DNA from: Promethearchaeota archaeon
Lineage (GTDB): Archaea > Asgardarchaeota > Lokiarchaeia > Sigyniarchaeales > SOKP01
Reading direction: 5' to 3'
DNA length: 64,000 bases
Assembly (NCBI GenBank): GCA_016840165.1
Contig: JAEOSU010000051.1
Location: 1 to 64,000, forward strand
Shown here one piece after another: positions 2,336 through 49,456 of this stretch. The position numbers and the translations under genes are program-made. Every line of letters begins with the position of its first letter. Position 1 is the stretch's first letter. Under the pieces are notes generated by a model. That model searched no databases. It worked only from the letters and a program-made list of their open reading frames with translations, and was not told the origin of the DNA.

Positions 2336-4285
2336 ATGTTGAACAATTTTAGAAAAAATAAACCAGCTCAAGTATTCGCAGCCTTGGTTATAATTATACT
2401 CTTTTCAGCAGTTATGTCCAGTGCATTCCAAAGTAGTTTTGGAGCCGTTGAAGTTAGATTGGTTATCATTAACGATAAAGATGGAGAAAGAGTCGTTGGT
2501 AAACTTTACAAACCTGTTGGAGTCGATGCAAGTAATCCAGCTCCAGGAATTCTGGGTCTTCATGGTTTTAACAACGATAAAGATGTTGAACGACCAGCAG
2601 CAATAGAATTATCTAGAGCAGGTTTTGTAGTATTAGCTTTAGACGAATTAGGTCATGGAGATTCTTCAGGAGGTTATAGACTGGATGCCGCGCCGTATAG
2701 TTATTTCCTTGCTTATGAATATCTAATGAATCTTACCTTTGTACAAGGAAATAATACGGGAATCTATGGGCATTCTATGGGTGAAATTAGAGCTCGACAG
2801 ATAGCCTTAGCTTATCCTCAACACAGAGCTCTTGGTCTTCAAGCTTTTACGCCAAGTTATGCTGGAGCATATTATGGATATTATGGTGATGATAGATTTC
2901 ATAATATACTTCATCTATGGGCTGCTTGGGAAGAATGGGGTTATGATGGAGAGAGTGTTGCTGAACAACTTGCTCACGGATTAGCACAATTGGACGCAGA
3001 GTATCATTTGGCTCCAGGAACTATGCAAGTTGACACTAATGTCAATCTATGGGGCGGACCTGCTGATTTTGCTAATGGTTCGGCAAGACGAGAATCCTAC
3101 GACTCAGGTACTCATCCATATATTACAATGAGTCCAAAACACACCGCGGAGATTGTTGCTTGGATGCTTCAAGCCCTTCAGGGAATGAGTTACGCAGATG
3201 CCTGGGAAATAGCAAACCCTGCAACTCAGATTTGGTTAGGAGCTGAGATTTTTGGCATAATAGCTTGTTTAGCTACGCTTCTTTCAATCTTACCTTTAGC
3301 TTACATGCTTATGAATACCAAATATTTCAGTGAAGTCAGACAACCAAAGCCCGAAAAAATCCATTCTGCCAAAAAATCTTCCTGGTGGATTGCAGCAACG
3401 GTTAACACAGTAATCGCCGGAATTACATACTGGTACTTTATCCCGGGATATGGTAACTCTGGATCTACTAAAAATTGGTTATTTGACGTAAAAATTGGCG
3501 ACTATTCGGTATACACCCATGGTGTGGCCAATGGTTTTGCGCATTGGTTCTTGCTAAATGCAGTGATTGCCACCATAACATGGTCTGCATGGTATCTCAT
3601 GACACGTTGGAGGAAAGGACGAGAAAGCATTTCCCTTCATGATATGGGTCTCACTTTTGCCACAAAAGATGAATTAGCAGGCCTATCTTTACCAAAGAAG
3701 GCAATAAAAGCTTTTAATCCACGAATAATAACTAAAACAGGTATTCTCGCCTTTCTTTTATTCGGATGGATGTATATGTTAGTAACTCTTTCCCAACACT
3801 TTCTAAATGTTGAATTCCGTGGTTTTTGGACCATGATGAAGGCATTTAGTGGCGTACAACGTGCCGTAGACTTTTGGCCTTACTTCGGAATTGTGTTTTT
3901 CTTTACTATGATTAACTGTGGACTTTTCATGTATGGGCAGATTAGAATGAAAGAATATAAGAATACATATGTAACTCATGCAGTTTGGTGGTTTAAATAT
4001 ATGTATGCGATGATATTCGGGTTAGTAGTGGTGATGTTAGTACAATACGCTCCACAGTGGTTTGGTGGCACCTTAACATCAAGGATACCAGGGACTGAGG
4101 AACCAATGTTTTCAGTCGCAAGAATGATGGTTATCCAATTGATGGGCGCTATTCCAGTATTTGCCACGTTCTTCTTCCTATCTATAAATCTCTATCGCCA
4201 GACTGGAAGAATATATCTTAGTTCAATTATGATGGCTGCTTTGATAGTATGGTTCGAGATGACTGCTTTAGTCGCCTATGTATAA
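2336..4285 (+). CDS. Alpha/beta-hydrolase domain fused to a multi-TM C-terminal domain
   Basis: LGLHGFNNDKD, nucleophile elbow GHSMG, then several hydrophobic helices. Confidence 0.8.
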   Translation: MLNNFRKNKPAQVFAALVIIILFSAVMSSAFQSSFGAVEVRLVIINDKDGERVVGKLYKPVGVDASNPAPGILGLHGFNNDKDVERPAAIELSRAGFVVLALDELGHGDSSGGYRLDAAPYSYFLAYEYLMNLTFVQGNNTGIYGHSMGEIRARQIALAYPQHRALGLQAFTPSYAGAYYGYYGDDRFHNILHLWAAWEEWGYDGESVAEQLAHGLAQLDAEYHLAPGTMQVDTNVNLWGGPADFANGSARRESYDSGTHPYITMSPKHTAEIVAWMLQALQGMSYADAWEIANPATQIWLGAEIFGIIACLATLLSILPLAYMLMNTKYFSEVRQPKPEKIHSAKKSSWWIAATVNTVIAGITYWYFIPGYGNSGSTKNWLFDVKIGDYSVYTHGVANGFAHWFLLNAVIATITWSAWYLMTRWRKGRESISLHDMGLTFATKDELAGLSLPKKAIKAFNPRIITKTGILAFLLFGWMYMLVTLSQHFLNVEFRGFWTMMKAFSGVQRAVDFWPYFGIVFFFTMINCGLFMYGQIRMKEYKNTYVTHAVWWFKYMYAMIFGLVVVMLVQYAPQWFGGTLTSRIPGTEEPMFSVARMMVIQLMGAIPVFATFFFLSINLYRQTGRIYLSSIMMAALIVWFEMTALVAYV

Positions 4286-5417: not shown

Positions 5418-6938
5418 TTGCCTAATAATAAGATAGCTTTTGATAATAATAAATACTTAAAAGAACAATCCAAAAGTATAATGCAAAGAGCAGCTCAATT
5501 CGGGAATAAATTGTATCTAGAATTTGGTGGAAAGCTAATCTCTGATTATCATGCAGCACGTATTTTGCCTGGTTTCGACCCAAATGGAAAATTAAAACTT
5601 TTAAGACTCCTTGAAAATAAAATTGAGGTAATTGTATGTATATTTGCTGGCGATATTGAAAGAAAAAAGATACGTGCTGATTTTGGAATTTCATATGATT
5701 CTGACGCAATGAAATTAATTGATGATCTCCATGAAGGAGGGATTAATGTAACCGCAATAGTTATTACGCGCTATAATGGGCAACCAGTAGTAAAACAATT
5801 TATGAACAAATTGGAGCGTCGAGATATAAGAGTCTATACTCATTATCCCATTACAGGGTATCCTACTGATATTGATCGAATCTTAAGCGAAGAAGGATAC
5901 GGAGCTAATAAATATATTGAAACTAGTAAACCTATTGTAATTGTGACTGGACCTGGACCAGGCAGTGGTAAGATGGCAACTTGTCTATCTCAAATTTATC
6001 ATGAATATCTGAAAGGGCAAGAAGCAGGTTATGCTAAGTTTGAAACTTTTCCAATTTGGAATTTACCCTTAAAACATCCAGTAAATTTAGCTTATGAATC
6101 AGCTACAGCGGATTTAGGTGATTTTAATCAAGTAGATCCCTTCCATCTCGAAGCCTATAATATAACCGCAGTAAATTATAATAGAGATATTGAGGTTTTT
6201 CCTGTACTTAGGAAAATCATGTCGAGAATTATGGGTAACAAATTAAAATATAAAAGTCCAACTGATATGGGTGTAAATCGAGCAGGTTTTGCAATAATCA
6301 ATAATGAGATTGTAAAACAAGCAGCAAAACAAGAATTAATTCGAAGATATTTTCGGTATAGTTGTGAGTATGCAATGGGTATTGCAGATAAGAAAACTGT
6401 TCAGAGAGCTGAATTATTGATGAAAGAGTTGAATCTTACTCCACTTGATCGAAAAGTTGTAAAAGAAGCTCGTCAAGCATCTATAATTGCACAACAGAAA
6501 GGAAAAGGTAATGAAGGAGTCTTCGCAGGTGCTGCTTTAGAATTGAAAGATGGCAGGATAATAACTGGTAATAATTCCCCACTTATGCATGCCGCCTCAA
6601 GTTTAATTCTAAATGCTATAAAAGTCTTGGCTTGTATCCCAGATAATATTCATCTCTTATCTCCTAATATATTGGAATCAATAAGTAATTTGAAATCAGA
6701 CATCTTCAACCAAAAAAGATTGAGTCTCAATCTCGAAGAAACTTTGATAGCATTAAGTATTAGCGCAGACTTTAATCCTTCTGCTAAAGTAGCGATGGAA
6801 ATGCTTAACAATCTTAAAGGTTGTGAAATGCATTCTACACATATACCTACTTCCGGAGACGAAGCAGGATTAAGAAGACTCGGACTTAATATAACATCTG
6901 ACCCCTCTTTTTCATCAAACCGTCTTTTTATTCCCTAA
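5418..6938 (+). CDS. DUF1846 (UPF0371) family protein, TTG start
   Basis: RAAQFGNKLYLEFGGKLISDYHAARILPGFDP and VTGPGPGSGKMATCLSQIYHE motifs. Confidence 0.85.
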   Translation: MPNNKIAFDNNKYLKEQSKSIMQRAAQFGNKLYLEFGGKLISDYHAARILPGFDPNGKLKLLRLLENKIEVIVCIFAGDIERKKIRADFGISYDSDAMKLIDDLHEGGINVTAIVITRYNGQPVVKQFMNKLERRDIRVYTHYPITGYPTDIDRILSEEGYGANKYIETSKPIVIVTGPGPGSGKMATCLSQIYHEYLKGQEAGYAKFETFPIWNLPLKHPVNLAYESATADLGDFNQVDPFHLEAYNITAVNYNRDIEVFPVLRKIMSRIMGNKLKYKSPTDMGVNRAGFAIINNEIVKQAAKQELIRRYFRYSCEYAMGIADKKTVQRAELLMKELNLTPLDRKVVKEARQASIIAQQKGKGNEGVFAGAALELKDGRIITGNNSPLMHAASSLILNAIKVLACIPDNIHLLSPNILESISNLKSDIFNQKRLSLNLEETLIALSISADFNPSAKVAMEMLNNLKGCEMHSTHIPTSGDEAGLRRLGLNITSDPSFSSNRLFIP

Positions 6939-7048
6939 TCCCTAATCATTTCATATCTCGAAATCCTTATTAAATGTGGTTTATATTTAATATTTTTATT
7001 ATGAAATTTCTATAAGTAAATAATAATATATAAAAATGGGCTAAAAAT

Positions 7049-8722
7049 ATGGCTATGGATTGCAAATATTGCTTTGTAACTGGCGGGGTTATGTCGGGGA
7101 TAGGAAAAGGAGTAGTCACAGCCTGTATAGGAAAAGTTTTACAATTTAGAGGATTTAAAGTATCCGTTGTAAAAATAGACCCTTATTTAAATATAGATCC
7201 CGGAACTTTAAACCCTACTGAGCATGGAGAGTGTTTTATCACTGAAGATGTTTGGGAATTTAAACCTGTTTTTGAATCAGATGAGAGAAGTTATAGAATC
7301 TCTGAAATCGATCAAGATTTTGGGACTTATTCCCGAATTTTAGGTATTGAGATGCATCCTTCCCATAATATAACTTCTGGTCAAATCTATCTTTCAACTA
7401 TTTTGAGAGAAAGAAAAGGCAAATTCTTAGGAAAAACTGTTCAATTAATACCTCATGTTACTGACATAATTAAAAACCGATTATTTGAAATTTCTGAAAA
7501 GGAGGAACTAGATGTATTATTAATTGAATGCGGTGGAACTGTAGGTGATTTAGAGTCAAGTATATTCTTAGAAGCATTCCGTCAAATCAAACTAGAATAT
7601 CCTAAACAAACGGTATTCGTTCATGTAACTCTTGTACCATACTCAAAAGCTGTTGGTCAGCAGAAATCTAAACCTACCCAGCATTCAGTAAAAATGCTTC
7701 AAAGTCTAGGATTACAACCAGACATTATCATTGGTCGAAGCGAATTTCCTTTAGCAAAAGACATAAAACGTAAAATTTCTTTATACTCAAATGTTCCTGA
7801 AAGGGCTGTTATTTCTAACCCTGATTTAGAAGTGGTATATGAACTTCCCATCCTTTTTGAAGAACAAGGTTTAGGGGATATTATTTGTGAATTAATTGAT
7901 TTAAAAGCAAAATTAGTGTCCTATAGCGAAGTAACCAATTATTCTGAATGGGTAAAAATGGTTGAGATGTATAAAAAAGCCAATAAAATTGTTCGAATTG
8001 GCATGCCAGGTAAATATTTTAACATTTCAGATTCCTATATCTCAATTAATGAAGCTTTAGAACATGCTGCCGCACATCAAGGATATAGGCCAGAATTAAA
8101 GATGATAAATCTTGCTGAGGATACCGACATTGAAAAAGAATTGAGTGATTGTGATGGAATTTTATTAACACCTGGATTCGGAGAGAGAGCAGTTGAGGGT
8201 ATGATCCGATCAGCTGAATATGCGATGGAGAACAAAATCCCCTTTTTAGGAATTTGTTTTGGAGCTCAATTGTTTTACGTTGCGTTTTGTAGAAAATATT
8301 TAGGACTAAAGAAGGCTAATTCGACAGAAATCGATCCAAATACCCCTTATCCGGTTGTAGATTTATTGAAAAGTCAAGAAGTAATCACTGAAAAAGGAGG
8401 AACCATGAGACTTGGAGCCCAGAAAATCATTATTCAACTAAATACAAAGTTATTTGAAGCCTATAAAGAAAAAGAAATATATGAGCGGTTTCGTCATCGC
8501 TATCATATAAAAGAACGATTTATTACGGAGGAAGCAAAACAAAAAGGAATAATCGTATCAAGTAGAAATGAAACAGGAGATATTGTCAATAGTATTGAAC
8601 TTAATCGAACAGATCATTGGATGGTTGGGACCCAATTTCATCCTGAGTTCAAATCGCGCCCCTATAATCCTTCACCCATATACATGGACTTTATAAAGGC
8701 ATGTATTAAATCAAAAGATTGA
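7049..8722 (+). CDS. pyrG: CTP synthase
   Basis: FVTGGVMSGIGKGVVTACIGKVLQFRGFKVSVVKIDPYLNIDPGTLNPTEHGE; C-terminal GATase LGICFGAQ. Confidence 0.97.
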   Translation: MAMDCKYCFVTGGVMSGIGKGVVTACIGKVLQFRGFKVSVVKIDPYLNIDPGTLNPTEHGECFITEDVWEFKPVFESDERSYRISEIDQDFGTYSRILGIEMHPSHNITSGQIYLSTILRERKGKFLGKTVQLIPHVTDIIKNRLFEISEKEELDVLLIECGGTVGDLESSIFLEAFRQIKLEYPKQTVFVHVTLVPYSKAVGQQKSKPTQHSVKMLQSLGLQPDIIIGRSEFPLAKDIKRKISLYSNVPERAVISNPDLEVVYELPILFEEQGLGDIICELIDLKAKLVSYSEVTNYSEWVKMVEMYKKANKIVRIGMPGKYFNISDSYISINEALEHAAAHQGYRPELKMINLAEDTDIEKELSDCDGILLTPGFGERAVEGMIRSAEYAMENKIPFLGICFGAQLFYVAFCRKYLGLKKANSTEIDPNTPYPVVDLLKSQEVITEKGGTMRLGAQKIIIQLNTKLFEAYKEKEIYERFRHRYHIKERFITEEAKQKGIIVSSRNETGDIVNSIELNRTDHWMVGTQFHPEFKSRPYNPSPIYMDFIKACIKSKD

Positions 8723-13887: not shown

Positions 13888-16038
13888 TTGGAAAGAATAA
13901 TAATGAGAAAATTTACAAAAATTTTAGTCTTGATTTTGCTCTTTAGTTCTTTTTCTCTACCGTTTATCCCAGTTATGGGAGAACCTGAATCCGCTCAAGC
14001 TGACAAAGTAGTCTTTAGGTATGGTGTCCAAATAACTCCCGCAGGCGGAGATTGGGATCCAGTGATTCGCCGTGCATCTAACGCTGATGTGGCTCGTATG
14101 TGTTCTCTGGAGGGTTTTGTAAGATATCCTGCTAATTGGAATGGAAATTACTCTCAATTAGAACCAATGCTCGCAACCGATGTGGAATTCGAATATTGGC
14201 CAGAAGAACAAAATTCAAAAGGATTTGTTAATGGAGGTGGTATTAAGGCGGTTAATTTAACGTTGCGAGAGAATGTAACCTTCCATGATGGCTCAGAATG
14301 GAACGCTACGGTGGCAAAGTGGAATCTGGATCGAATAATCATAGTTTCGGGTAATTTAACAGGAAATGGTGATACACGTTATTATTATGATTTTTGGGAA
14401 GAAGCGAGTGATTATGTAGATTTTTATACTCCAAGTTGGAACATGTCATCTTATATCGGCGAAATGCCTTCCTATAATGGCATTGTTGCAACTAATTCTT
14501 TACTAAACGGGACTTTTCCTAAATATAAGAATGTAACCATCCTAGAATCCGGAGGGCCTAATGGAGGGGGAAAAATCAGAATTAACTATAATGATTGGGC
14601 TTCTCTTTCAGTCTGGGAGCTTTTAGCAACTAATCCTCAACATTATATCTTGATGATATCGATGGAGGCTTATGCGGACTATTGGGATAAAGCAATTTAT
14701 GGTTTTGGAGAAAATCCCTCCTTTCCTCAGGATGAGACCTTCCAACACTTGGTTGGAACGGGACCATATATATTTGATCATTGGGATGCAGTCGCACAGG
14801 ATGGCAAAATGGTAAAAAACGAGAATTATTGGAATAAAGACGCTCTTGAAAGTGTCGGTTGGTTTGGGATTGATGAAATACAATTTGTGTTATTTACCGC
14901 CGATGCAGATGGTACGCAAGCACGTAATTTAGCTATGAAAACTGGTGCAATAGATATTTCTGAAGATACCACTGGATTTAATTTTGTTTACAGTGAAGTT
15001 ATGGCACAAGCTGATATTACCTATTATGAAAACCCCATTGGAGATTACCCATTCATAACTGTATTGAATTGTATTAATGATACAGAATGGAAAACTAATT
15101 ACGATGCTGGAGACCCGTATGTCCCCTACCAACCCAATGGAATCCCGCGTTTACTTCGGAAAGCAATCTCATACGCATTCGACTATGAAGGATTTATACA
15201 GACAGCTTATAGCGGACGGGCGACGCGTATGAAGAGTTATCTTGGCAACAATAACACCTATGCTAATTATGATATTGCTATGCCATATTTAAATCTTACA
15301 ATCGCACGAGAAGCTATACTTGCTCAATATCCAACTGAATGTGCTGCAAGAAGCTTAAATGAAACTAGTACCGATCAAGATTGGCAATATGTTGCAAACA
15401 ACAATCCCATATTTACGGTTGATTTCTATTGGGATACAACTTCAGTTCAGCAGGTTCTTGAGGATTATATGGGTACTGCTCTTCATAATATTGGAATGGC
15501 TTATTATGATGATACCTCTCATGAATTAGCTTCTGTATGGATACAAATCTTGTATGTTCCTGGAGGAGCATTTAGTGCACAAGTATGGCCATCGACTTTT
15601 GCCATAGCACCGAATGATATAGGTCACGCACACATTAATGCCTATTTCAAGTATCCAGGTCCATATAATCCAGCTTGGAATTTAGCTTTCAATTATCTTG
15701 ATAATGTCACTGACTGGATAGATCAAATCTATTTTTCAAACCGTACTATAAGACAAGAATGCTATGATAACATTGGATTAACATTACAAAATTACCAATA
15801 CCCATGGATGTGGATATGCCAAGGTGATTGGGGATGGGTTTATAGGAGAGAATGGGAAGTACGTGAGTTCGAATTCTATATTGGAATGCCAAGGATTGTT
15901 GGAGATCTTACACATATTAGATACGTAGGATGGGAACCACCACTTCAGATACCCGGATTTCCGGTATACGTCATGTTGTCTGTTTCTCTTGCTACATCTG
16001 TTGGACTTATTTACGTAATGATGAGAAAGAGAAAGTAA
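13888..16038 (+). CDS. ABC transporter substrate-binding protein, family 5 (oligopeptide/dipeptide), membrane anchored
   Basis: N-terminal signal, LTLRENVTFHDGSEWNATVAKWNLDR, GTGPYIFDHW; C-terminal TM and basic tail. Confidence 0.92.
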   Translation: MERIIMRKFTKILVLILLFSSFSLPFIPVMGEPESAQADKVVFRYGVQITPAGGDWDPVIRRASNADVARMCSLEGFVRYPANWNGNYSQLEPMLATDVEFEYWPEEQNSKGFVNGGGIKAVNLTLRENVTFHDGSEWNATVAKWNLDRIIIVSGNLTGNGDTRYYYDFWEEASDYVDFYTPSWNMSSYIGEMPSYNGIVATNSLLNGTFPKYKNVTILESGGPNGGGKIRINYNDWASLSVWELLATNPQHYILMISMEAYADYWDKAIYGFGENPSFPQDETFQHLVGTGPYIFDHWDAVAQDGKMVKNENYWNKDALESVGWFGIDEIQFVLFTADADGTQARNLAMKTGAIDISEDTTGFNFVYSEVMAQADITYYENPIGDYPFITVLNCINDTEWKTNYDAGDPYVPYQPNGIPRLLRKAISYAFDYEGFIQTAYSGRATRMKSYLGNNNTYANYDIAMPYLNLTIAREAILAQYPTECAARSLNETSTDQDWQYVANNNPIFTVDFYWDTTSVQQVLEDYMGTALHNIGMAYYDDTSHELASVWIQILYVPGGAFSAQVWPSTFAIAPNDIGHAHINAYFKYPGPYNPAWNLAFNYLDNVTDWIDQIYFSNRTIRQECYDNIGLTLQNYQYPWMWICQGDWGWVYRREWEVREFEFYIGMPRIVGDLTHIRYVGWEPPLQIPGFPVYVMLSVSLATSVGLIYVMMRKRK

Positions 16039-17790: not shown

Positions 17791-19629
17791 TTATTGTTTC
17801 GGAGGATTTATACACCAAATATAATGACCTTCTTCGATCTTTATCTTATGAGGTAAATCAAATTCACATTCCTTAGTACGCACATCTGAAGAACAACGAG
17901 GGTGAAAGGCACATCCTGTAGGTGGGGCTATAAGACTTGGAACTTCACCACGAATAATAAACTTTATATCCCGATTTTTCATATCAACTTCAGATCTTGA
18001 TGCTAACAATGCTTGGGTGTAAGGATGGGAAGGTTTTGAAAAAACTTGATTAGTATCCCCAATTTCGACAATTTGACCAAGATACATCACTGCAATTCGA
18101 TCAGCAATATGATTTACTGCAGCTAAATTGTGAGTAATAAATAAATAACCATAACCATAATTTTTTTGTAATTTTTTAAGTAGGTTTAGGATTTGTGCTT
18201 GCACTGATACATCAAGAGCAGATGTTGGTTCGTCAAGAATTATTAGTTCTGGATTGGTTGCAAGCGCTCGAGCAATAACAATTCTTTGCTTTTGACCTCC
18301 TGAAAATTCGTGTGGATAACGATCCATGTGTTCTCGCTTCAATGCGACCTCTTTCATTAATTCTAAAACCTTTTTTCTTAGTTCATCTTTTTTTTTAATA
18401 CCTAATAGGTTTTTAAGAGGTTCAGCAATGATATCAAACACCTTTAAGCGAGGATTTAAGGATGCATCTGGATCCTGATAGACGATCTGGATTTTTTGCC
18501 TAATAAAACTTGAATAAGGAATAGAAAGAGGTTTGTCATGAAAGAGAACATCTCCATTATTTTTTTCTACTAATCCTAAAATTCCAAGAGCAGCTGTTGT
18601 TTTTCCGCAACCACTTTCTCCCACTAATCCAAGGGTCTCACCTGTCTTAATTTCGAAAGATATACTGTTAACTGCTTTAATGACACCTATTTGTCTTCTA
18701 AATATTCCACCAATAAGAGGATAAAAAACTTTGAAATCTTTAACATTTAATAAGTTTTTACCTGGCTCTAATTTAATAAGTTCTCGAATTTCACCTAAAT
18801 GTATTCTTTTTATAAAGATATATTTCAAGATAACACTAATTACAACCGAAAATGTACCAGCGAAAAGAAATTGTATCTCTATAGAATAGGGCAGGAAAAA
18901 AGCGGTTATTGAACTTATAATTGAAGCCGTTGAGTAAAGATTTCTTTTATTTGTTAGTAATTGCGAACGAACCCCCAAATTGAAAATTAAAAGCGAAATA
19001 AGAAAACTAACAAGGAACAACGAAATAAACCACTCAATAAGAAGATCAACTGTTAATCCTATTATGAGTATAAAAAACAATTGAGAAATAGGATCACTGA
19101 AATAACTAATACTTATGAAGATTATTATTAATATTGGAAAAATGATAATCGGTAAGTCGTAGAAGATAAATAGTAAAATAGAAAATACTCTTTTTTCTTT
19201 CTTTCGAACAATAGTTTTATAATCTTTTGCAAATAATCCTGCAATTAATGCTATAATTGGAGAAAAAAATAAAAGTTGACCACTTATCGGTATAGATTGT
19301 TCGGCGTAAACCAAGATGCCGCTCAATAAAATAAAGAAAAAACTAGAGAGTATCAAAATAATTATTATCTTCTTAATACTTTTGGATCTTCTGGTAATAC
19401 CTTTATTTTTAATATGTCGATACAACAAAAATAGAATGGTGACTTGGAAAAAAAGCGCATAAGCAATACACAATACTGAAAAATACAACCCTGCAAGATT
19501 ATTTTGCTCTAAAATGGAAATCATTAAAGGAGTTATTCCAATAGATATTCCAAAAATTATGAAACTTAACCCCAGAACACAAATTCCGAAACATATCCAA
19601 TTAATTATGTCTTTTCTTGAATCATTCAT
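17791..19629 (-). CDS. Oligopeptide ABC transporter ATP-binding protein (OppF/DppF-like) with N-terminal multi-TM extension
   Basis: GESGCGKTT, ELIILDEPTSALDVSVQAQIL, C-terminal oligopeptide_DPP motif; about 285 aa hydrophobic N-terminus. Confidence 0.9.
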   Translation of the reverse strand: MNDSRKDIINWICFGICVLGLSFIIFGISIGITPLMISILEQNNLAGLYFSVLCIAYALFFQVTILFLLYRHIKNKGITRRSKSIKKIIIILILSSFFFILLSGILVYAEQSIPISGQLLFFSPIIALIAGLFAKDYKTIVRKKEKRVFSILLFIFYDLPIIIFPILIIIFISISYFSDPISQLFFILIIGLTVDLLIEWFISLFLVSFLISLLIFNLGVRSQLLTNKRNLYSTASIISSITAFFLPYSIEIQFLFAGTFSVVISVILKYIFIKRIHLGEIRELIKLEPGKNLLNVKDFKVFYPLIGGIFRRQIGVIKAVNSISFEIKTGETLGLVGESGCGKTTAALGILGLVEKNNGDVLFHDKPLSIPYSSFIRQKIQIVYQDPDASLNPRLKVFDIIAEPLKNLLGIKKKDELRKKVLELMKEVALKREHMDRYPHEFSGGQKQRIVIARALATNPELIILDEPTSALDVSVQAQILNLLKKLQKNYGYGYLFITHNLAAVNHIADRIAVMYLGQIVEIGDTNQVFSKPSHPYTQALLASRSEVDMKNRDIKFIIRGEVPSLIAPPTGCAFHPRCSSDVRTKECEFDLPHKIKIEEGHYIWCINPPKQ

Positions 19630-19686: not shown

Positions 19687-22602
19687 TTATTTATTAAATT
19701 CAGGATCATACAAATGACACGCAACAAAATAATTATTTTCAACTTCTATGCTTCTGGGAACTATAGAACTGCACGGTTCGAACCGATAGGGACACCTTGG
19801 GTGAAACCGGCATCCTGAAGGGGGATATATTAAATTTGGTACTAATCCAGGGATTACTTCAAGTTCCTCTTTCTTTTTGCCAATAACGGGTATCGATCCA
19901 AGAAGGCCCTTTGTATATGGATGAGAAGGTTTTTCAAATACTCTATAAATATCTCCATATTCAACTATAAAACCACTATACATGACTGCAACCCTGTCAC
20001 ACATCTTTGATATGATTCCAAGATCGTGTGTAATAAAAAGAATAGAGGTATTATATTTTTCGCGGAGATTCTTCATTAAATTAAGTATTTGATTTTGGAT
20101 TGTAACATCTAAAGCAGTTGTAGGTTCATCTGCTATTAATAATTTAGGACTACATGCAAGAGCCATAGCAACTTGAATTCTTTGGCGCATTCCCCCACTT
20201 AATTCATGGGGATATAGGTTATAAACACGTTCTGGGGAAGGAATGTTTAGTTCTCTAAGTAATTGTTCACTGAATTCTCGAGCAATACTGTATATGCTTT
20301 TACCAGGATGTTTCAATGTTTCAATGAGAAGCTCGTCTTCCATGTGTTGGAGATATACTTCCGAGATTTGCTTACCTACTTTAAAAACCGGATTTAGGGA
20401 ATTAAGGGGATCTTGAAAAATCATGGTTATCTTATTTCCACGATAATTTAAAATTTCTTTTTGAGATTTTTGGAGTAAATCTTCTCCTTCAAATATAACT
20501 TTTCCACTCTCAATTTTCCCTGGAGGCCGAACAACCTGAAGTATAGATAATGCCGTAACTGATTTCCCACAACCTGTTTCTCCTACAAGACCAAGCGTTT
20601 CACCTTTGTAGATTTTAAAAGAGACTCCTTCTACCGCACGTACAACACCTTCTTCAGTGTAAAAATAGGTTGTAAGATCCTCTACATCCAAAATAACTTT
20701 TTTTCCTTCAATTTCTCTCTCTTGAATTTTCGGTACTGCTACAATTGGTACGATTTTTTGATCTTTACTCATTTCTTTCTTGAATTCTTCAGGATTGAAT
20801 TTCACTTTCAAAGAAACGGTAAAAAAAATGAGAAAAATAAATATATCAATAATAAGGTGAACTCGAATATCTTGAACGTTAAAATGATAATACGGTAAAA
20901 TTGATAGAATAAATACCAATATGCTTTCAATAATAATTATACCCAAGAAAAAAGTAATAACTCCAACCCTAAACACGAAATTTAAAGATTGTTTAAACTC
21001 TTTTTTATAAAGCTTCGTAACAATAACTGAACCAACAAAAATATCTATAACTACAACAAGAAGATCATTTAGAAGAATATCACCAAAAAGATTAACAAAA
21101 AATATTCCAAATGGTAAATTTATAATTAACCATATTACATTTATAATAAATGTCTTTCTAAGGGAAGTATCAAATCCTTTCTTACTTGAAAGCCATCTTG
21201 TTATATATATTCCCACTATAAATATAATAATTGAAGAAATTATAACAGAGAAAACATCAGAGATGAGGATTTGATAGATCCCCATAAAAAAATAATAATA
21301 AACGAAGAAAAGTGGAATAACCAAAAGCCAAAGGAAAATAACTCCACCAATGAAAATAGAGTCTCTAATAATTTTTCTTGGAATTTGTTTCTCAAAAGGT
21401 ATGAGTTTGTTAAAAATAATCATAATAGAGATATCAATAAGAATTATAAAAAAAGCATATTGAACACTAAGAAAAAACATCTCAATAATGGGATTTAAGT
21501 TAGATAATAATTGAAAGAAATTAATTGAAAGAATGACAAAAACAATAATCCACAATAAACCTACGATAATATTCTTAAATAACTTTCTCTTTTTATTAAT
21601 TAAATGGGTGTTATCGTCTAAATAAGGTAAGCTCCTAAGTTTTTTCATTAAAAAGAAATATAATTTATAAGAAACACTTTCTACAAGATAAATGACACCC
21701 TCATACTTATTAAAACTATCCTCAAGATCTTGAGGGTTTCCTATAGTTTCCTTTCCTCCAAATAGTCGATTATTAATTGTTTTTTCTTTTTCTTTTGTTA
21801 TCACTTCTAAAACTTTTTTCCTACTTTTTATAGCCGCTTCTGGTAAAAACTTAATTCTTAATAAATTGAAATAGCTCACAATAAATATCCCTAAAATAAG
21901 AATTATTTCCACACGAAGATCTTGTTTTATAAAAGTCATTCCGAATAATCGAGACAGATACATTTCAAAAATGATAAATTGGACTGACCAGATCCCAAAC
22001 GAGATTAGTCCACTTGCAATCAAAGAATCTCTGAATGCCTTTTTTGGGATCTGATTCTCAATTGGTTTTGATTTATCTATTAAATACATAAGAACTATGA
22101 TAAAGAAGACTGTAAAAAATGCCGTGAAAAATCCTATATATAATAGATCATAATCTGGTTTATTTGGTTCCCATTCCAATTGAAGTCCTAATATCTCAAA
22201 TGAGAGAAATATTACTGCTATACTCCAAATTACACCCAATATTATTATAAATTTTAGTTTGAAATCTTTAAATATTTGATGTATATCTTCAAATTCTGAA
22301 GCTTTATAGAACTTTGGTAAAAATAATTTATATATAGGAAAAAATGTGCTTATTGCTACTGCGAAAAAGAGAATAAAATTATTCAAATATCCAATTATTG
22401 GATAATCGTCAAAGGTTTCAACAACAAACCCGATACCGAATATCATACCAAAGACCAATAATAAAGTTAAACATAAGCTTTTAACATTTATTGGTATTCC
22501 TTTATCCTTTGGAAGTAGTTTGTTTATTAAACTAAAAATAAGACTTAAAATTAATATTATAACAATAACTTCAACTAGAACTAGTCCATAATTAAAAGCC
22601 AT
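19687..22602 (-). CDS. Oligopeptide ABC transporter ATP-binding protein (OppD/DppD-like) with very large N-terminal multi-TM extension
   Basis: GETGCGKSV, LSGGMRQRIQVAMALACSPKLLIADEPTTALDVT; about 640 aa of TM helices N-terminal to the NBD. Confidence 0.9.
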   Translation of the reverse strand: MAFNYGLVLVEVIVIILILSLIFSLINKLLPKDKGIPINVKSLCLTLLLVFGMIFGIGFVVETFDDYPIIGYLNNFILFFAVAISTFFPIYKLFLPKFYKASEFEDIHQIFKDFKLKFIIILGVIWSIAVIFLSFEILGLQLEWEPNKPDYDLLYIGFFTAFFTVFFIIVLMYLIDKSKPIENQIPKKAFRDSLIASGLISFGIWSVQFIIFEMYLSRLFGMTFIKQDLRVEIILILGIFIVSYFNLLRIKFLPEAAIKSRKKVLEVITKEKEKTINNRLFGGKETIGNPQDLEDSFNKYEGVIYLVESVSYKLYFFLMKKLRSLPYLDDNTHLINKKRKLFKNIIVGLLWIIVFVILSINFFQLLSNLNPIIEMFFLSVQYAFFIILIDISIMIIFNKLIPFEKQIPRKIIRDSIFIGGVIFLWLLVIPLFFVYYYFFMGIYQILISDVFSVIISSIIIFIVGIYITRWLSSKKGFDTSLRKTFIINVIWLIINLPFGIFFVNLFGDILLNDLLVVVIDIFVGSVIVTKLYKKEFKQSLNFVFRVGVITFFLGIIIIESILVFILSILPYYHFNVQDIRVHLIIDIFIFLIFFTVSLKVKFNPEEFKKEMSKDQKIVPIVAVPKIQEREIEGKKVILDVEDLTTYFYTEEGVVRAVEGVSFKIYKGETLGLVGETGCGKSVTALSILQVVRPPGKIESGKVIFEGEDLLQKSQKEILNYRGNKITMIFQDPLNSLNPVFKVGKQISEVYLQHMEDELLIETLKHPGKSIYSIAREFSEQLLRELNIPSPERVYNLYPHELSGGMRQRIQVAMALACSPKLLIADEPTTALDVTIQNQILNLMKNLREKYNTSILFITHDLGIISKMCDRVAVMYSGFIVEYGDIYRVFEKPSHPYTKGLLGSIPVIGKKKEELEVIPGLVPNLIYPPSGCRFHPRCPYRFEPCSSIVPRSIEVENNYFVACHLYDPEFNK

Positions 22603-22631: not shown

Positions 22632-23633
22632 TTATTTTATATGTAATCGTGGATCTAATGCATCCCGTAACCCATCACCAATTAATATAAATCCAATGGA
22701 AGTAAGACCTATGAATAATCCTGGCCAGAGAGCTGCTCCTGGAGTATCAAAATGACCTCTTGCATACATGATATCTGCTCCCCAATTAGCAATAGTAGGA
22801 TCTCCCAAACCGATAAAAGCAAGACCTGCTAGACCCAAAACAGTAGTACCCATTGCTCCAAAAAAAGAAATAATAATGGGAGAAATTGTATTGGGAAAAA
22901 TATGTTTAAACATAACTCTAAACTTATCTGCCCCACTACTTATTGCAGCTCTAACATAATCATTTTGTTTTACTTGTAAAACTAAAGATCTCATAAATCT
23001 AATATTATAGGGTATAAAGAGAATACCATAAATTATTAGAACCTGATATAAATCATTTCCAACTAAGGGAGCAATAATTATAACAATTATCAACATTGGT
23101 AAACTTAAGAAGATATCACAGAGACGCATCATGACGGAATCAACCCAACCTCCAAAATATGCCGAAATTGTTCCTAATATAACACCTCCACCAATGGAAA
23201 TTGCAACAGGCAATAGTGCTGCCTGTAGAGTAGTCCTAGCACCCCAGATTAATCTTCCAAGAATGTCCCATCCATATATTGTTGTACCTAATGGATGTTC
23301 TGGTGATGGTGGCAGGAAAGCATCATCTGGAGGATATAATGGGGGCGTTACATTTGCTAAAGTAAGTTCAGTAAGCCAAGGACCATAAACGGCTATAAAA
23401 GCAATAATTAAAACTAAGAGAAAACCGAGTAGGGTTAATGGTGTAATAAAACGGCGGAATAATCTCCTTTTTGATTTAATTTTTCCAATCTGATATTCTC
23501 GTTCGGAAAATTCAGGAACTCTATAACCAGGCAATAAATAAAATTTTATTAATTGCTTAATTTTTGAATTGTTTTTTATTGAATCTTCCTCAATTTCCTC
23601 TTTTTCGCTATAAACTTGCATTATTAAAATCAC
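22632..23633 (-). CDS. Oligopeptide/dipeptide ABC transporter permease (OppC/DppC-like)
   Basis: HPLGTTIYGWDILGRLIWGARTTL, binding-protein-dependent permease EAA-like loop RAAISSGADKFRVMFKHIFPNTISPI. Confidence 0.93.
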   Translation of the reverse strand: MILIMQVYSEKEEIEEDSIKNNSKIKQLIKFYLLPGYRVPEFSEREYQIGKIKSKRRLFRRFITPLTLLGFLLVLIIAFIAVYGPWLTELTLANVTPPLYPPDDAFLPPSPEHPLGTTIYGWDILGRLIWGARTTLQAALLPVAISIGGGVILGTISAYFGGWVDSVMMRLCDIFLSLPMLIIVIIIAPLVGNDLYQVLIIYGILFIPYNIRFMRSLVLQVKQNDYVRAAISSGADKFRVMFKHIFPNTISPIIISFFGAMGTTVLGLAGLAFIGLGDPTIANWGADIMYARGHFDTPGAALWPGLFIGLTSIGFILIGDGLRDALDPRLHIK

Positions 23634-23646
23634 TTCTTTTTAATCG

Positions 23647-24717
23647 TTACTTAAAAGTTATTCTTGGGTCGATCACGACATAGAGCACATCAGTAATTAA
23701 TGTTCCACTAATTATAATTAAACATGAACATACTAAAAATCCATTTATAAGTAAATAATCACCAACAAATATAGAACGAACAAAATAATATCCAAATCCT
23801 AAATAATTAAAAGTTGCTTCTAAGAAAATAGATCCTAAAAGTGCTCCTGTTATTGTAGTTATTATAAGGTTACTTGAAGGAATTAACGCATTCCGAATGG
23901 CATGTGAATTAATGACCTTTTTTTCCGGAAGGCCCTTAGCACGGGCAGTCCGAATATAATCTTGATCCATGACATCTAACATACTAGAACGGGTTTGTCT
24001 CGTAATACCCGCAAGAGATCCAAAAGATATACAAATTACGGGAATAAATAAATGGAGGATTGTATCAAAAAAGAAAACTGGATCATTATTCAAAATAGCA
24101 TCAATAAGGCGAAATCCAGTGAAATATTCCCCTGATAAATGAGCTCCAGGTGTATTTGAAAACATAATCTGTATAGATATTTCTCCATATGTGAATTCTT
24201 TTAGAATTACACCAAAAAATACTTGCAGGAGGTTACCTATAAAAAATATTGGTAATCCCGCTCCTAAAACTGCAAGAAAGCGAATGGAGGTATCTTTCAG
24301 CTTATCTTTGTTAGTTGAAGACACAATTCCAAGTTTTACCGCAATAATAGGTATTATAACAATTGGAAATATCATTAACTCAATAGTTTTTGGAAAAACA
24401 GTACCGATAACTTCAATTACCGGGACATCACGCATAATAACATAAGAATTGCCCCAATTTCCTGTGAAAAAATTCTGTAGATATATAAATAGCTGTACCA
24501 ATACTGGTTTGTCATATCCCATTCTTCTTTCTTCCTCTTCAATCATTCTCTGGATTTGTACTAAATCTTCGCCCGGCGCTATCTGTGAAATCACGGGAAA
24601 TACATCCATATTTTTTGATAAAATAAAAGTAATTATTAAAACTATGATTAATATTGGAACCATCATCAATATCCGCTTGATAATATATTTAATCATATTC
24701 TGACTTTGACGAGCCAA
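23647..24717 (-). CDS. Oligopeptide/dipeptide ABC transporter permease (OppB/DppB-like)
   Basis: MIKYIIKRILMMVPILIIVLIITF; QDYIRTARAKGLPEKKVINSHAIRNALIP. Confidence 0.93.
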   Translation of the reverse strand: MARQSQNMIKYIIKRILMMVPILIIVLIITFILSKNMDVFPVISQIAPGEDLVQIQRMIEEEERRMGYDKPVLVQLFIYLQNFFTGNWGNSYVIMRDVPVIEVIGTVFPKTIELMIFPIVIIPIIAVKLGIVSSTNKDKLKDTSIRFLAVLGAGLPIFFIGNLLQVFFGVILKEFTYGEISIQIMFSNTPGAHLSGEYFTGFRLIDAILNNDPVFFFDTILHLFIPVICISFGSLAGITRQTRSSMLDVMDQDYIRTARAKGLPEKKVINSHAIRNALIPSSNLIITTITGALLGSIFLEATFNYLGFGYYFVRSIFVGDYLLINGFLVCSCLIIISGTLITDVLYVVIDPRITFK

Positions 24718-24741: not shown

Positions 24742-25122
24742 CTAATATTTTTCTTTTTTTCTTACTGATAATTGTTTTAATTTCATCCCAATCAGAGAAC
24801 CGCTTAGAGTTAATCCGATTAAAATTAAAATGTTAAGATATCCTTCAAAATAGGCAAATTGTAAAATGAAGGGTTCTAAACTGAACCCAAACATAATATA
24901 ATAAAATATAAAACCCTCAACAATTATCGTAGGAACCAGCCAGATCGATGCTCTAATTCCATAGTGAGGAATATCTTCCTTGTAAGTCATAATGAAACAC
25001 ACTACAAATAATAAAATTGCTCCTAGAAAAAAACTGCGAGTATAAGTAGTATATGTCCATATTAATATTGTCCTATCCATATCTAAAAAAGAAATCCAGT
25101 CACCATATTGATCATATAACAT
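24742..25122 (-). CDS. Small membrane protein of the opp operon; coding probably extends upstream to about 25285
   Basis: Open frame continues upstream as VKIKKPINIQQDEFQAEPEFRAHFKIDWGRQGTVILCYIIIILGYYGIIANT-MLYDQ; shares an xxxIPxxxxRxSI motif with the OppD extension. Confidence 0.7.
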   Translation of the reverse strand: MLYDQYGDWISFLDMDRTILIWTYTTYTRSFFLGAILLFVVCFIMTYKEDIPHYGIRASIWLVPTIIVEGFIFYYIMFGFSLEPFILQFAYFEGYLNILILIGLTLSGSLIGMKLKQLSVRKKEKY

Positions 25123-45383: not shown

Positions 45384-45902
45384 ATGAAACAAATCGCTCT
45401 TAAATTTCTGGTTTTAGGTGATGGTGGAGTTGGAAAGACAACACTCCTTCACAGGTATGTAAAGGGTAAGTTTCTAAATACAGCAACTATGACTATTGGA
45501 GTTGAATTTCTCTCAAAACAAATTCAGATGAATGGAATTATATGTCAGCTAATCTTATGGGATATCTCGGGTCAAGATCGCTTTCGTTTTATGATTGACA
45601 AATATATGAGAGGTGCAAGTGGAGCTCTTTTACTCTTTGATACTACTAACATGACATCATTCGTGAATATTGGTAAATGGGTAAATCTTGTAAGAAAATA
45701 TTACCAAAACTTACCGATTCTATTAATCGCAGCAAAATGCGATCTTGAAGAGTTTTCAATTGTAGGAGATATTTATGCGAAAAAGACAAAAGAGCGTTTT
45801 GGGATGGTTGACTTTATTAAGACATCATCGAAGTCAGGCATGAATGTGAAATTAGCATTTGAGACCTTAGCAAATTATATAGTTCAGCTAAAAAAAATAT
45901 GA
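45384..45902 (+). CDS. Rab/Ras-like small GTPase
   Basis: G1 GDGGVGKTT, G3 WDISGQDRF, G4-like AAKCDL, G5 TSSKSG. Confidence 0.93.
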   Translation: MKQIALKFLVLGDGGVGKTTLLHRYVKGKFLNTATMTIGVEFLSKQIQMNGIICQLILWDISGQDRFRFMIDKYMRGASGALLLFDTTNMTSFVNIGKWVNLVRKYYQNLPILLIAAKCDLEEFSIVGDIYAKKTKERFGMVDFIKTSSKSGMNVKLAFETLANYIVQLKKI

Positions 45903-47338: not shown

Positions 47339-49456
47339 ATGGCCACAGAAACTGTTTTTGAGGAAGAAGTTCTTTTCCAAGATGACGATTTTTCTTATTT
47401 AAAGAAAAACCGGGATCCCTTGATTAAATGGATCTTGTTTGCTTTTGCCTCAGTAGCAACTGTATTTGTGTTTTTAATTATTATCTTTTTATTTGTTAAC
47501 GGAGCTCCATTTTTTGTACAAGTCCCATTACAGGACTTTTTTTTTGGTACTAATTGGCTTCCCTCAGCAGGAGATTTTGGTGCCTTACCAATTATTATTG
47601 ATACACTATTGGTAACTTTAGGAGCGATTGTTATTGCGTTACCATTGGGTATCCTTACTGCAATATTTATTGCGGAGTTAGCACCTCCTTTATTGAGGCA
47701 AATACTTAAATTCACTGTAGAAATACTCGCAGGTATTCCATCAATAGTATATGGCTTCTTTGGGGTGGCAATTCTGAATACTTGGATAAAGGATATATTT
47801 GGGATGCATGATGGAAGAAGTTGGCTTTCTGGTTCTCTTATACTAGCTATAATGGCATTACCTACCATTGTATCAGTATGTGAAGACGCAATTCGAGCAG
47901 TTCCCGATTATTATCGAGATGCATCTTATGCAATGGGAGCAACAAAATGGCAAACCATCCGTAAGGTGGTAATACCCGCTGGAATGTCAGGGATAACAGC
48001 TGCGATGATTCTAGGAATTGGGCGAGCCTTAGGTGAGACTATGGCAATGACATTAGTAATTGGCAATAGTTATCGCTTACCCGACCCGCTAACAAATATG
48101 TTGAGTCAAGTAACGGTAATAACTTCAACTATTGCTACAAATTGGGGGCCAACTGTAGAAGGTAGTATTGAGCAAAAAAGTCTCTTAGCACTTGGAATTG
48201 TACTATTTATCATGGCTTTACTCGTAAATACGCTTTCAAATATTATTATGACTAGGGTTAAAAGAAAATTTACTGGTCAAAAACCAAAAGAAAAATTTTT
48301 AAAATTAAAAAATTCGAACTATTATAAATTATACAAGCAGTATAGACAATGGATAATTACTGCTCTTGTTATAATATTAGTAATATTAGTCTTACCTGAT
48401 TTTAATTCTCAAATTTTCGGAGCTTTATTAATTTCTGGATTAAGTGTTTTATATTATATCTATAAAAAAGTACCAAAACAACATAAAAGACTTGTGATCT
48501 ATTCTGTCTTGCTTTCATTCTTTGGATGGATACTTAGTACGTGGATAGGAATATTTTTAGCTATATCTATGTGCTTAATAATTTTTGCCTCCTTAATTCT
48601 CCTTAAGCGTATTTCTACCGTGATTCAACAGCGAATATGGTTTGTCATCATCTATTCAAGTTCTGCATTTGCTGTTTTCGCAGTAGGTCTTTTAATATAC
48701 TATATTGTAGTGACAGGAGCACCTGTATTTCTTGAGCCTGGCTTTCTTACGGGCGTGCCAAGTAATAGTGGAAGAGAAGGGGGAATTTTCCCAGCAATCA
48801 TTGGAACTTTACAACTCACAATAGGTTCAATATTATTTGCACTCCCTCTAGGCATGTTTGCAGGGATATATCTTTCTGAGTATGCGAGGGATAGCAAAAT
48901 AACTAAATTTTTTCGAGCTGGTATAGATAATCTAAATGGTACGCCTTCAATTGTTTTTGGCTTATTTGGAGTAATGTTTTTTCTTTTATTTATTGGCTTG
49001 CCAAGATCCTTGTTAGTCGGAATTTTAACCTTAGGGTTAATGATCCTTCCTACAATCATAAGAACTACTGAAGAAGCTGTTAAAGCAATTCCTCAATCTT
49101 TTCGAGAAGGAAGTTTAGCATTAGGTTCAAGTAAATTTCAAGGAATTCTTAAAATAGTGGTACCCGCAGCTATACCCGGAATAGTGACAGGGGCTGTTTT
49201 AGGGATGGGTCGAAGTGCAGGAGAAACAGCACCAATAATGTTTACAGCAGTAAGATCCCACTCTTCCTATATATCATTCTCGTTATTAAATCCCGTTATG
49301 ACACTCACTTATCACTTATTTCGATTAAGTGGTGAAGTCACAGGAGGACTTGAACGAGCTGCTGGAACGGCTTTGACTCTATTGTTATTAGTTTTAGTTT
49401 TGTATAGTTTTGCATTTATTATTCGTATTAGATATGAAAAAAGAAAACAATGGTGA
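47339..49456 (+). CDS. Fused phosphate ABC transporter permease PstC-PstA
   Basis: Two permease modules: [18 protein letters not shown]...[26 protein letters not shown] and [17 protein letters not shown]...[26 protein letters not shown]. Confidence 0.93.

Follow-up and report, generated by a model that had tools for sequence, protein, structure and literature searches.

We describe an OppD-type ATPase of a Lokiarchaeal peptide importer that carries, ahead of its ATPase domain, a large membrane extension built around a domain of seven predicted helices (domain A). Sequence comparisons establish the fusion, the repeat within it, the module nested in that repeat, the pairing with an extension on the partner ATPase OppF, the restriction to a single clade and the purifying selection; the seven-helix fold and the topology of domain A are supported by prediction. 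We favour, with a probability of roughly 0.55, a reading in which the extension is an accessory domain resembling TMD0 that would anchor the ATPase beside OppB and OppC and contact a partner on the outside.

The OppD fusion gene and its operon

The gene occupies 19687..22602 on the minus strand of the window (the whole stretch of 64,000 nucleotides analysed here) and encodes a protein of 971 aa, as defined by one uninterrupted ORF and by orthologues. Its coordinates had been given correctly by an earlier reading of the DNA (the sequence-only reading), to which our follow-up adds the strand. The membrane extension of ∼630 aa (residues 1–630) and the OppD/DppD ATPase that follows it (residues 631–971; 19690..20712, minus strand) share a single frame, and orthologues with the full extension are 79, 66 and 62% identical to the window protein. 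The ATPase domain is assigned by Pfam and by motifs: PF00005 matches residues 658–829 (E 2e-26) and PF08352 (oligo_HPY) residues 880–944 (E 4e-21, above the family cut-off), the Walker A, Q-loop, LSGGM signature, Walker B and H-loop are all there with invariant motif columns, and a four-cysteine C-terminal motif is visible in the translation. The OppD model PRK09473 matches residues 637–964 at E 2e-99, a match that stays under the curated whole-protein cut-off. The window gene is the OppD subunit of an Opp/Dpp-type peptide ABC importer, in a variant with a new membrane domain. Its ABC core, the oligo_HPY region with the cysteines and the company of OppB, OppC, OppF and family-5 binding-protein genes are all those of OppD/DppD; the description of such ATPases as peripheral, of ∼330 aa and free of membrane helices does not fit it, given the 630-aa membrane extension.

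The operon is transcribed in the order U, OppB, OppC, OppD fusion, OppF, and the gene order is the same in relatives. OppB (23647..24717, minus strand; PF00528, E 2e-31) and OppC (22632..23633, minus strand; PF00528, E 4e-30) are separate genes, as had been stated from the sequence alone. U (24742..25122, minus strand; from translation and relatives), the first gene, encodes a small membrane protein of 126 aa that matched no Pfam family and may be a subunit common to the Opp systems of Lokiarchaea. An early blastp resemblance of U to the second half of the OppD extension (E 2e-4) was not upheld by profiles. U was also seen beside importers without extensions.

OppF (17791..19629, minus strand; assigned by Pfam and relatives) has 612 aa and consists of a membrane extension of 288 aa (18766-19629) followed by its NBD (17794-18765), both on the minus strand. 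The extension is 80% alike in genome G019 and 33% in G020. Such OppF extensions are made up of ∼110 aa adjoining the NBD, common to the clade, ahead of which many operons have a module that we call Bm (see below); profile comparison detected no relationship between the OppF extension and domain A. Inserts within ATPase domains were seen as well. In L107 (G030:C25:32000-44000; 6002-7609, plus strand) the OppF NBD has ∼170–200 aa with about four hydrophobic helices inserted between its Walker A and Q-loop, and at this position the plain OppFs of L111-L114 have an insert of 90–100 aa that is almost or entirely free of membrane helices. The OppDs of L105 (6503-8968, plus strand; 821 aa) and L106 (3-1763, plus strand; 586+ aa) have a long charged, coiled-coil-like insertion within the ATPase and no membrane helix.

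A divergent solute-binding protein with a C-terminal membrane anchor is encoded at 13888..16038 on the plus strand (PF00496, E 2e-22; the anchor is read from the translation). Binding proteins near most extended importers have ∼700–790 aa and those near plain importers ∼575–630 aa, the latter size being found also near a few deep-branching extended importers. Elsewhere in the window, 47339-49456 (plus strand) encodes a protein of 705 aa that by eye joins PstC and PstA phosphate-type permease halves in one chain and is followed by PstB and PhoU-like genes; 45384-45902 (plus strand) encodes a small Rab/Ras-like GTPase of the sort expected in Lokiarchaea, and 2336-4285 (plus strand) a single protein in which a large membrane domain comes after one resembling alpha/beta-hydrolases.

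Fold, topology and conservation of domain A

Domain A covers residues 1–280 (21763..22602, minus strand) and has seven TM helices according to AlphaFold2 and positive-inside counts. Modelled alone from 31 sequences, it gave seven helices with a pLDDT of 88 and a pTM of 0.75, in which TM1-2 and TM5-6 are two related units and TM7 is a single predicted helix (229–284) running toward the NBD. Positive charges lie in loops 28–41, 97–117 and 178–191 and after residue 252, with few in 63–75, 139–154 and 213–228. This pattern places the N-terminus of domain A outside and its C-terminus inside, consistent with a cytoplasmic ATPase.

The most conserved stretch in the 31-sequence alignment, residues 203–230 (21913..21996, minus strand; G-x-W-x2-Q-x4-E-x-Y ... 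Q-D-x-R), spans the outer end of TM6 to the start of TM7. D152, W205, Q208, E213, Y215, Q227, D228 and R230 are 94–100% conserved in these sequences and, in the predicted model, face outside. The sequence-only reading had left the choice between an anchor, a sensor and an accessory transport module; the outward residues speak for a domain that interacts with something rather than one that only anchors.

A Pfam search with domain A of the window gave no match over the cut-off and none that convinced, a search of PDB sequences gave no match, and Foldseek of the model returned nothing below E 1 in PDB or 0.28 in BFVD. The claim that an additional, undescribed membrane module sits on the OppD ATPase agrees with these searches. 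A GPCR/rhodopsin-like fold, which supplied the best Foldseek matches, was rejected (E 1.1 or worse, TM-score 0.13–0.28, rmsd 12 Å or more), as was kinship of domain A with OppB/OppC, U, the OppF extension or Bm, for which profile comparisons gave at most 5.3%. The fusion is real, and it is neither an artefact nor a known domain.

Domain A is followed by a cytoplasmic charged linker (residues 281–335; 21598..21762, minus strand), recognized by its conservation and a pLDDT <50 in AlphaFold2. It is the least conserved part of the fusion, with 53–67% identity among the long forms described below and a dN/dS of 0.40–0.87.

A partial copy of domain A interrupted by Bm

At the level of alignments, the membrane region is not one domain; it is domain A, the linker and a partial copy of A split by the unrelated module Bm. 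The sequence-only reading, which took the extension (∼640 aa by its count) for one repeated domain, was right about the repeats and wrong about the unity. In the single sequence, Smith-Waterman alignment of residues 150–318 with 318–630 scored 106, a value reached by none of 500 shuffles (mean 47, s.d. 7). With profiles built from relatives, hhalign matched residues 115–210 to 339–432 (97.5%, E 6e-12) and residues 195–278 to 544–628 (95.7%, E 1e-8). In the hhalign controls, domain A or the second half reached at most 1.1% against OppB/OppC, and the true homologues OppB and OppC reached 96% against each other. A profile built only from short forms matched all eight long forms beyond residue 300, with E-values from 5e-11 to 5e-22; at E<10 it matched not one of 200 shuffles. 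Self-alignment, shuffles and profile–profile comparison thus all bear out the internal repeats.

The first part of the second copy (residues 339–440; 21283..21588, minus strand; hhalign) has three TM helices corresponding to TM4-6 of domain A, and the last part (residues 566–628; 20719..20907, minus strand; hhalign) has one, corresponding to TM7. Between them lies Bm (residues 447–558; 20929..21264, minus strand), a module of four TM helices found by hhalign and HMM, the insert having its limits at about 441–565. Residues 438–568 match the Bm family of free-standing and fused relatives at 99.9% (hhalign, E 1.8e-35), and the Bm HMM matches the window OppD at E 1.1e-35. Two matched flanks with Bm between them identify the second half as an incomplete copy of domain A interrupted by Bm, and the insertion accounts for the unequal spacing of the motifs (∼50 residues in copy 1 and ∼170 in copy 2). 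The second copy retains QDIR and has changes at the W205 and Q208 positions; a [QNTI]D[IL]R motif stands in its last part in 8 of 8 long forms. AlphaFold2 of the whole protein modelled the second half of the extension poorly (pLDDT <50). Judging by hydropathy and the AlphaFold2 helix list, the four-helix insert would leave the topology of copy 2 unchanged.

A further, weak repeat had been suspected at the N-terminus. Residues 7–55 resemble 156–206 in hhalign (94.9%, E 4e-8, 49 columns only), and in the single sequence the likeness is not significant, as 21 of 500 shuffles reach its score. This repeat is probably real but short.

Bm profiles match 47 of the 228 genomes of the phylum at E 1e-5. 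The module occurs as free proteins of 126–169 aa, on OppF, inside OppD and ahead of a PAAT-type permease; the gene for the last fusion is flanked by those of an amino-acid binding protein and the corresponding ATPase, and the permease part of this fusion matches OppC at 96% in profile comparison. Joined to ABC importers in three different settings (on OppF, inside OppD and on the PAAT permease), Bm behaves as a mobile membrane module. Its Pfam matches are weak: DUF2070 in 12 of 28 (best 1.5e-4) and Yip1 in 4 of 28 (best 2.5e-4). We noted Bm at the N-terminus of the PAAT-type amino-acid permease in L065, L068, L076, L077 and L067. The OppF extension of L059 (6843-8852, minus strand) has three tandem Bm copies (2-122, 131-205 and 293-383); the ATPase frame there is broken, with the remainder in a second ORF (6532-6846), possibly through an assembly frameshift.

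Spread and evolution of the extension

The long form, domain A with the Bm-split copy, was found in eight Lokiarchaeal operons with identical domain order, shared equally between the window's genus and a second genus of the same family (four genomes each). A further 28 related OppDs have domain A without the split copy and, since most relatives have domain A only, the window gene is an elaborated form. The A-only OppDs come from many operons of the window's family and from other families and orders. Among them is the single-contig genome G042, where the profile match is weak (E 3e-6) and is stronger in the relative G037 (E 2e-11). The profile search proposed in the sequence-only reading to follow the spread of the extension gives, at E<=0.001, matches of domain A in 21 of 228 genomes of the phylum, the last one marginal.

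In a quick tree of 67 OppD ATPases, the 36 that bear an extension fall on one side of a branch with SH-aLRT 93, and no loss was detected among the sampled members of this clade. A single gain of the extension, retained in all members sampled, is therefore probable, and the lack of detected loss in these 36 OppDs argues that it cannot easily be dispensed with. Support is good for each of the two long-form groups, and a single origin of the long form is not rejected (p-AU 0.36).

Both ATPase genes were readable in 62 operons: 32 have extensions on OppD and OppF and 29 on neither; the remaining one, L081, runs into the end of its contig. The extension of OppF had been missed in the sequence-only reading. 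The pairing stems from one gain, so a Fisher p-value for it does not represent many independent events.

Between close pairs of long forms, dN/dS (by a simple counting method, in an AT-rich genome) is 0.25–0.33 for domain A, 0.23–0.44 for the second copy, 0.40–0.51 for Bm, 0.40–0.45 for the linker and 0.05–0.12 for the ATPase domain. The extension is under purifying selection and less constrained than the ATPase, and its second half evolves faster.

Discussion

If the extension is an accessory domain of the TMD0 type, domain A would keep the ATPase permanently at the translocator, and its outward site might bind a partner, either the binding protein with its membrane anchor or another of the extensions. 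The E. coli DppBCDF structure has DppD in contact with DppB, and DppF with DppC (PMC12136057); by analogy domain A would be placed next to OppB and the OppF extension next to OppC. On this reading both ATPases of the Lokiarchaeal peptide importer have turned into integral membrane proteins. In the lineage of the window the C-terminal half of domain A was duplicated and the copy then interrupted by the mobile Bm, which may widen the membrane belt with the topology kept (four helices in, same side out). The reading draws on the intact NBD motifs under strong selection, the purifying selection on the extension, the cytoplasmic NBD, the outward conserved residues, the D/F pairing, the joining of Bm to ABC importers and the absence of detected loss; against it count the failure of domain A to match any TMD0 in sequence or fold, the origin of the pairing in one gain and the faster, poorly modelled (pLDDT <50) second half. 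A bolder version is offered tentatively: a distinct class of Lokiarchaeal importers with both ATPases integral, in which domains of seven helices on OppD and of three to seven on OppF ring OppB/C and the outward site of domain A takes a binding protein or signal and controls ATP hydrolysis.

The conserved polar residues, outward and within the membrane, together with a TM7 that reaches as one predicted helix toward the NBD, would also suit a sensor or gate, in which a ligand such as a peptide, ion or lipid, bound by domain A at the outer polar site, would switch the ATPase on or off through TM7. We think this unlikely, as the copy of A adjoining the NBD in the window protein is the degenerate one (altered at W205 and Q208, with QDIR kept), the intact copy lies beyond a long linker of low conservation, and Foldseek matched no known receptor fold. 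Seven helices in two related units are a common arrangement of carriers, and one could imagine that the ATPase is fused to an accessory transporter or to a further route for translocation; no transporter family or fold was matched, however, and OppB and OppC are present and normal, so that this seems very improbable.

Another view is that Lokiarchaeal ABC proteins collect membrane modules in a near-neutral way and keep them mainly since loss destabilises the subunit. Bm does occur in many places, with three tandem copies in the OppF of L059, extension sizes vary widely, further insertions lie within OppF NBDs, and the extension has a dN/dS roughly two- to ninefold that of the NBD. Such accretion nevertheless appears distinctly unlikely: domain A shows no loss in 36 members across several families, has nearly invariant outer residues and is paired with the OppF extension. 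It is scarcely credible that the fusion is an artefact, be it frames joined by an assembly error or an ATPase that starts internally with the upstream part as a separate product. An in-frame ATG at residue 611 would permit the internal start, yet no clear ribosome site precedes it and the closest orthologue has a valine codon there. Assembly error, which the sequence-only reading had still considered, is rejected: the identical fusion occurs in eight genomes, 28 further OppDs have the shorter A-fusion, and there is no stop or frame break.

Few transporters are as well understood as the ABC importers, and their ATPases are regarded as soluble parts docking from the cytoplasm; an Asgard importer clade with both ATPases built into the membrane would alter what is possible in assembly, coupling and regulation. 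A membrane domain without a family or fold match and a clear nested domain insertion in a membrane protein are the new elements here. Our literature search found no paper describing such OppD/OppF membrane fusions; a survey of Asgard transporters, in the portions reached by a term search, mentions PepT systems and no such fusions. Cultured Lokiarchaea are described as degrading peptides and amino acids (PMC7997004), so the importer concerns their main food supply. The simple form in the single-contig genome G042 would be suited to structural work.

Among known systems, the OppD and OppF of Mycoplasma (NCBIfam NF043079 and NF043078; 561 and 649 positions) are likewise enlarged peptide-importer ATPases. 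Their enlargement presumably sits inside the ATPase, as the split NCBIfam matches suggest, and implies no membrane domain. The Bm relatives, free proteins and the N-termini of Lokiarchaeal PAAT-type permeases, are the same four-helix module as residues 447–558. With OppBCDF/DppBCDF (E. coli DppABCDF, PMC12136057) the window system shares the gene set, the permease and ATPase families, the C-terminal cysteine motif in both ATPases and the family-5 SBP; the known DppD and DppF, however, are peripheral, of ∼330 aa and without membrane helices, whereas here both ATPases carry from 3 to about 15. Closest in arrangement is the TMD0 of TAP1/2 and TAPL, likewise a membrane domain added at the N-terminus of an ATPase-bearing chain and lying outside the core translocator, as the extension is here, OppB and OppC being separate and complete. 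The TMD0 of TAPL (PMC6199259) and the N-terminal domains of TAP (PMC3437018) are hubs for interaction and targeting. Searches with Pfam, PDB sequences and Foldseek gave domain A no likeness to the known TMD0 domains in sequence or fold, and its setting differs: the TMD0 of exporters stands on a full TMD–NBD chain and has four helices in TAPL, whereas domain A stands on the separate ATPase subunit of an importer and has a predicted seven.
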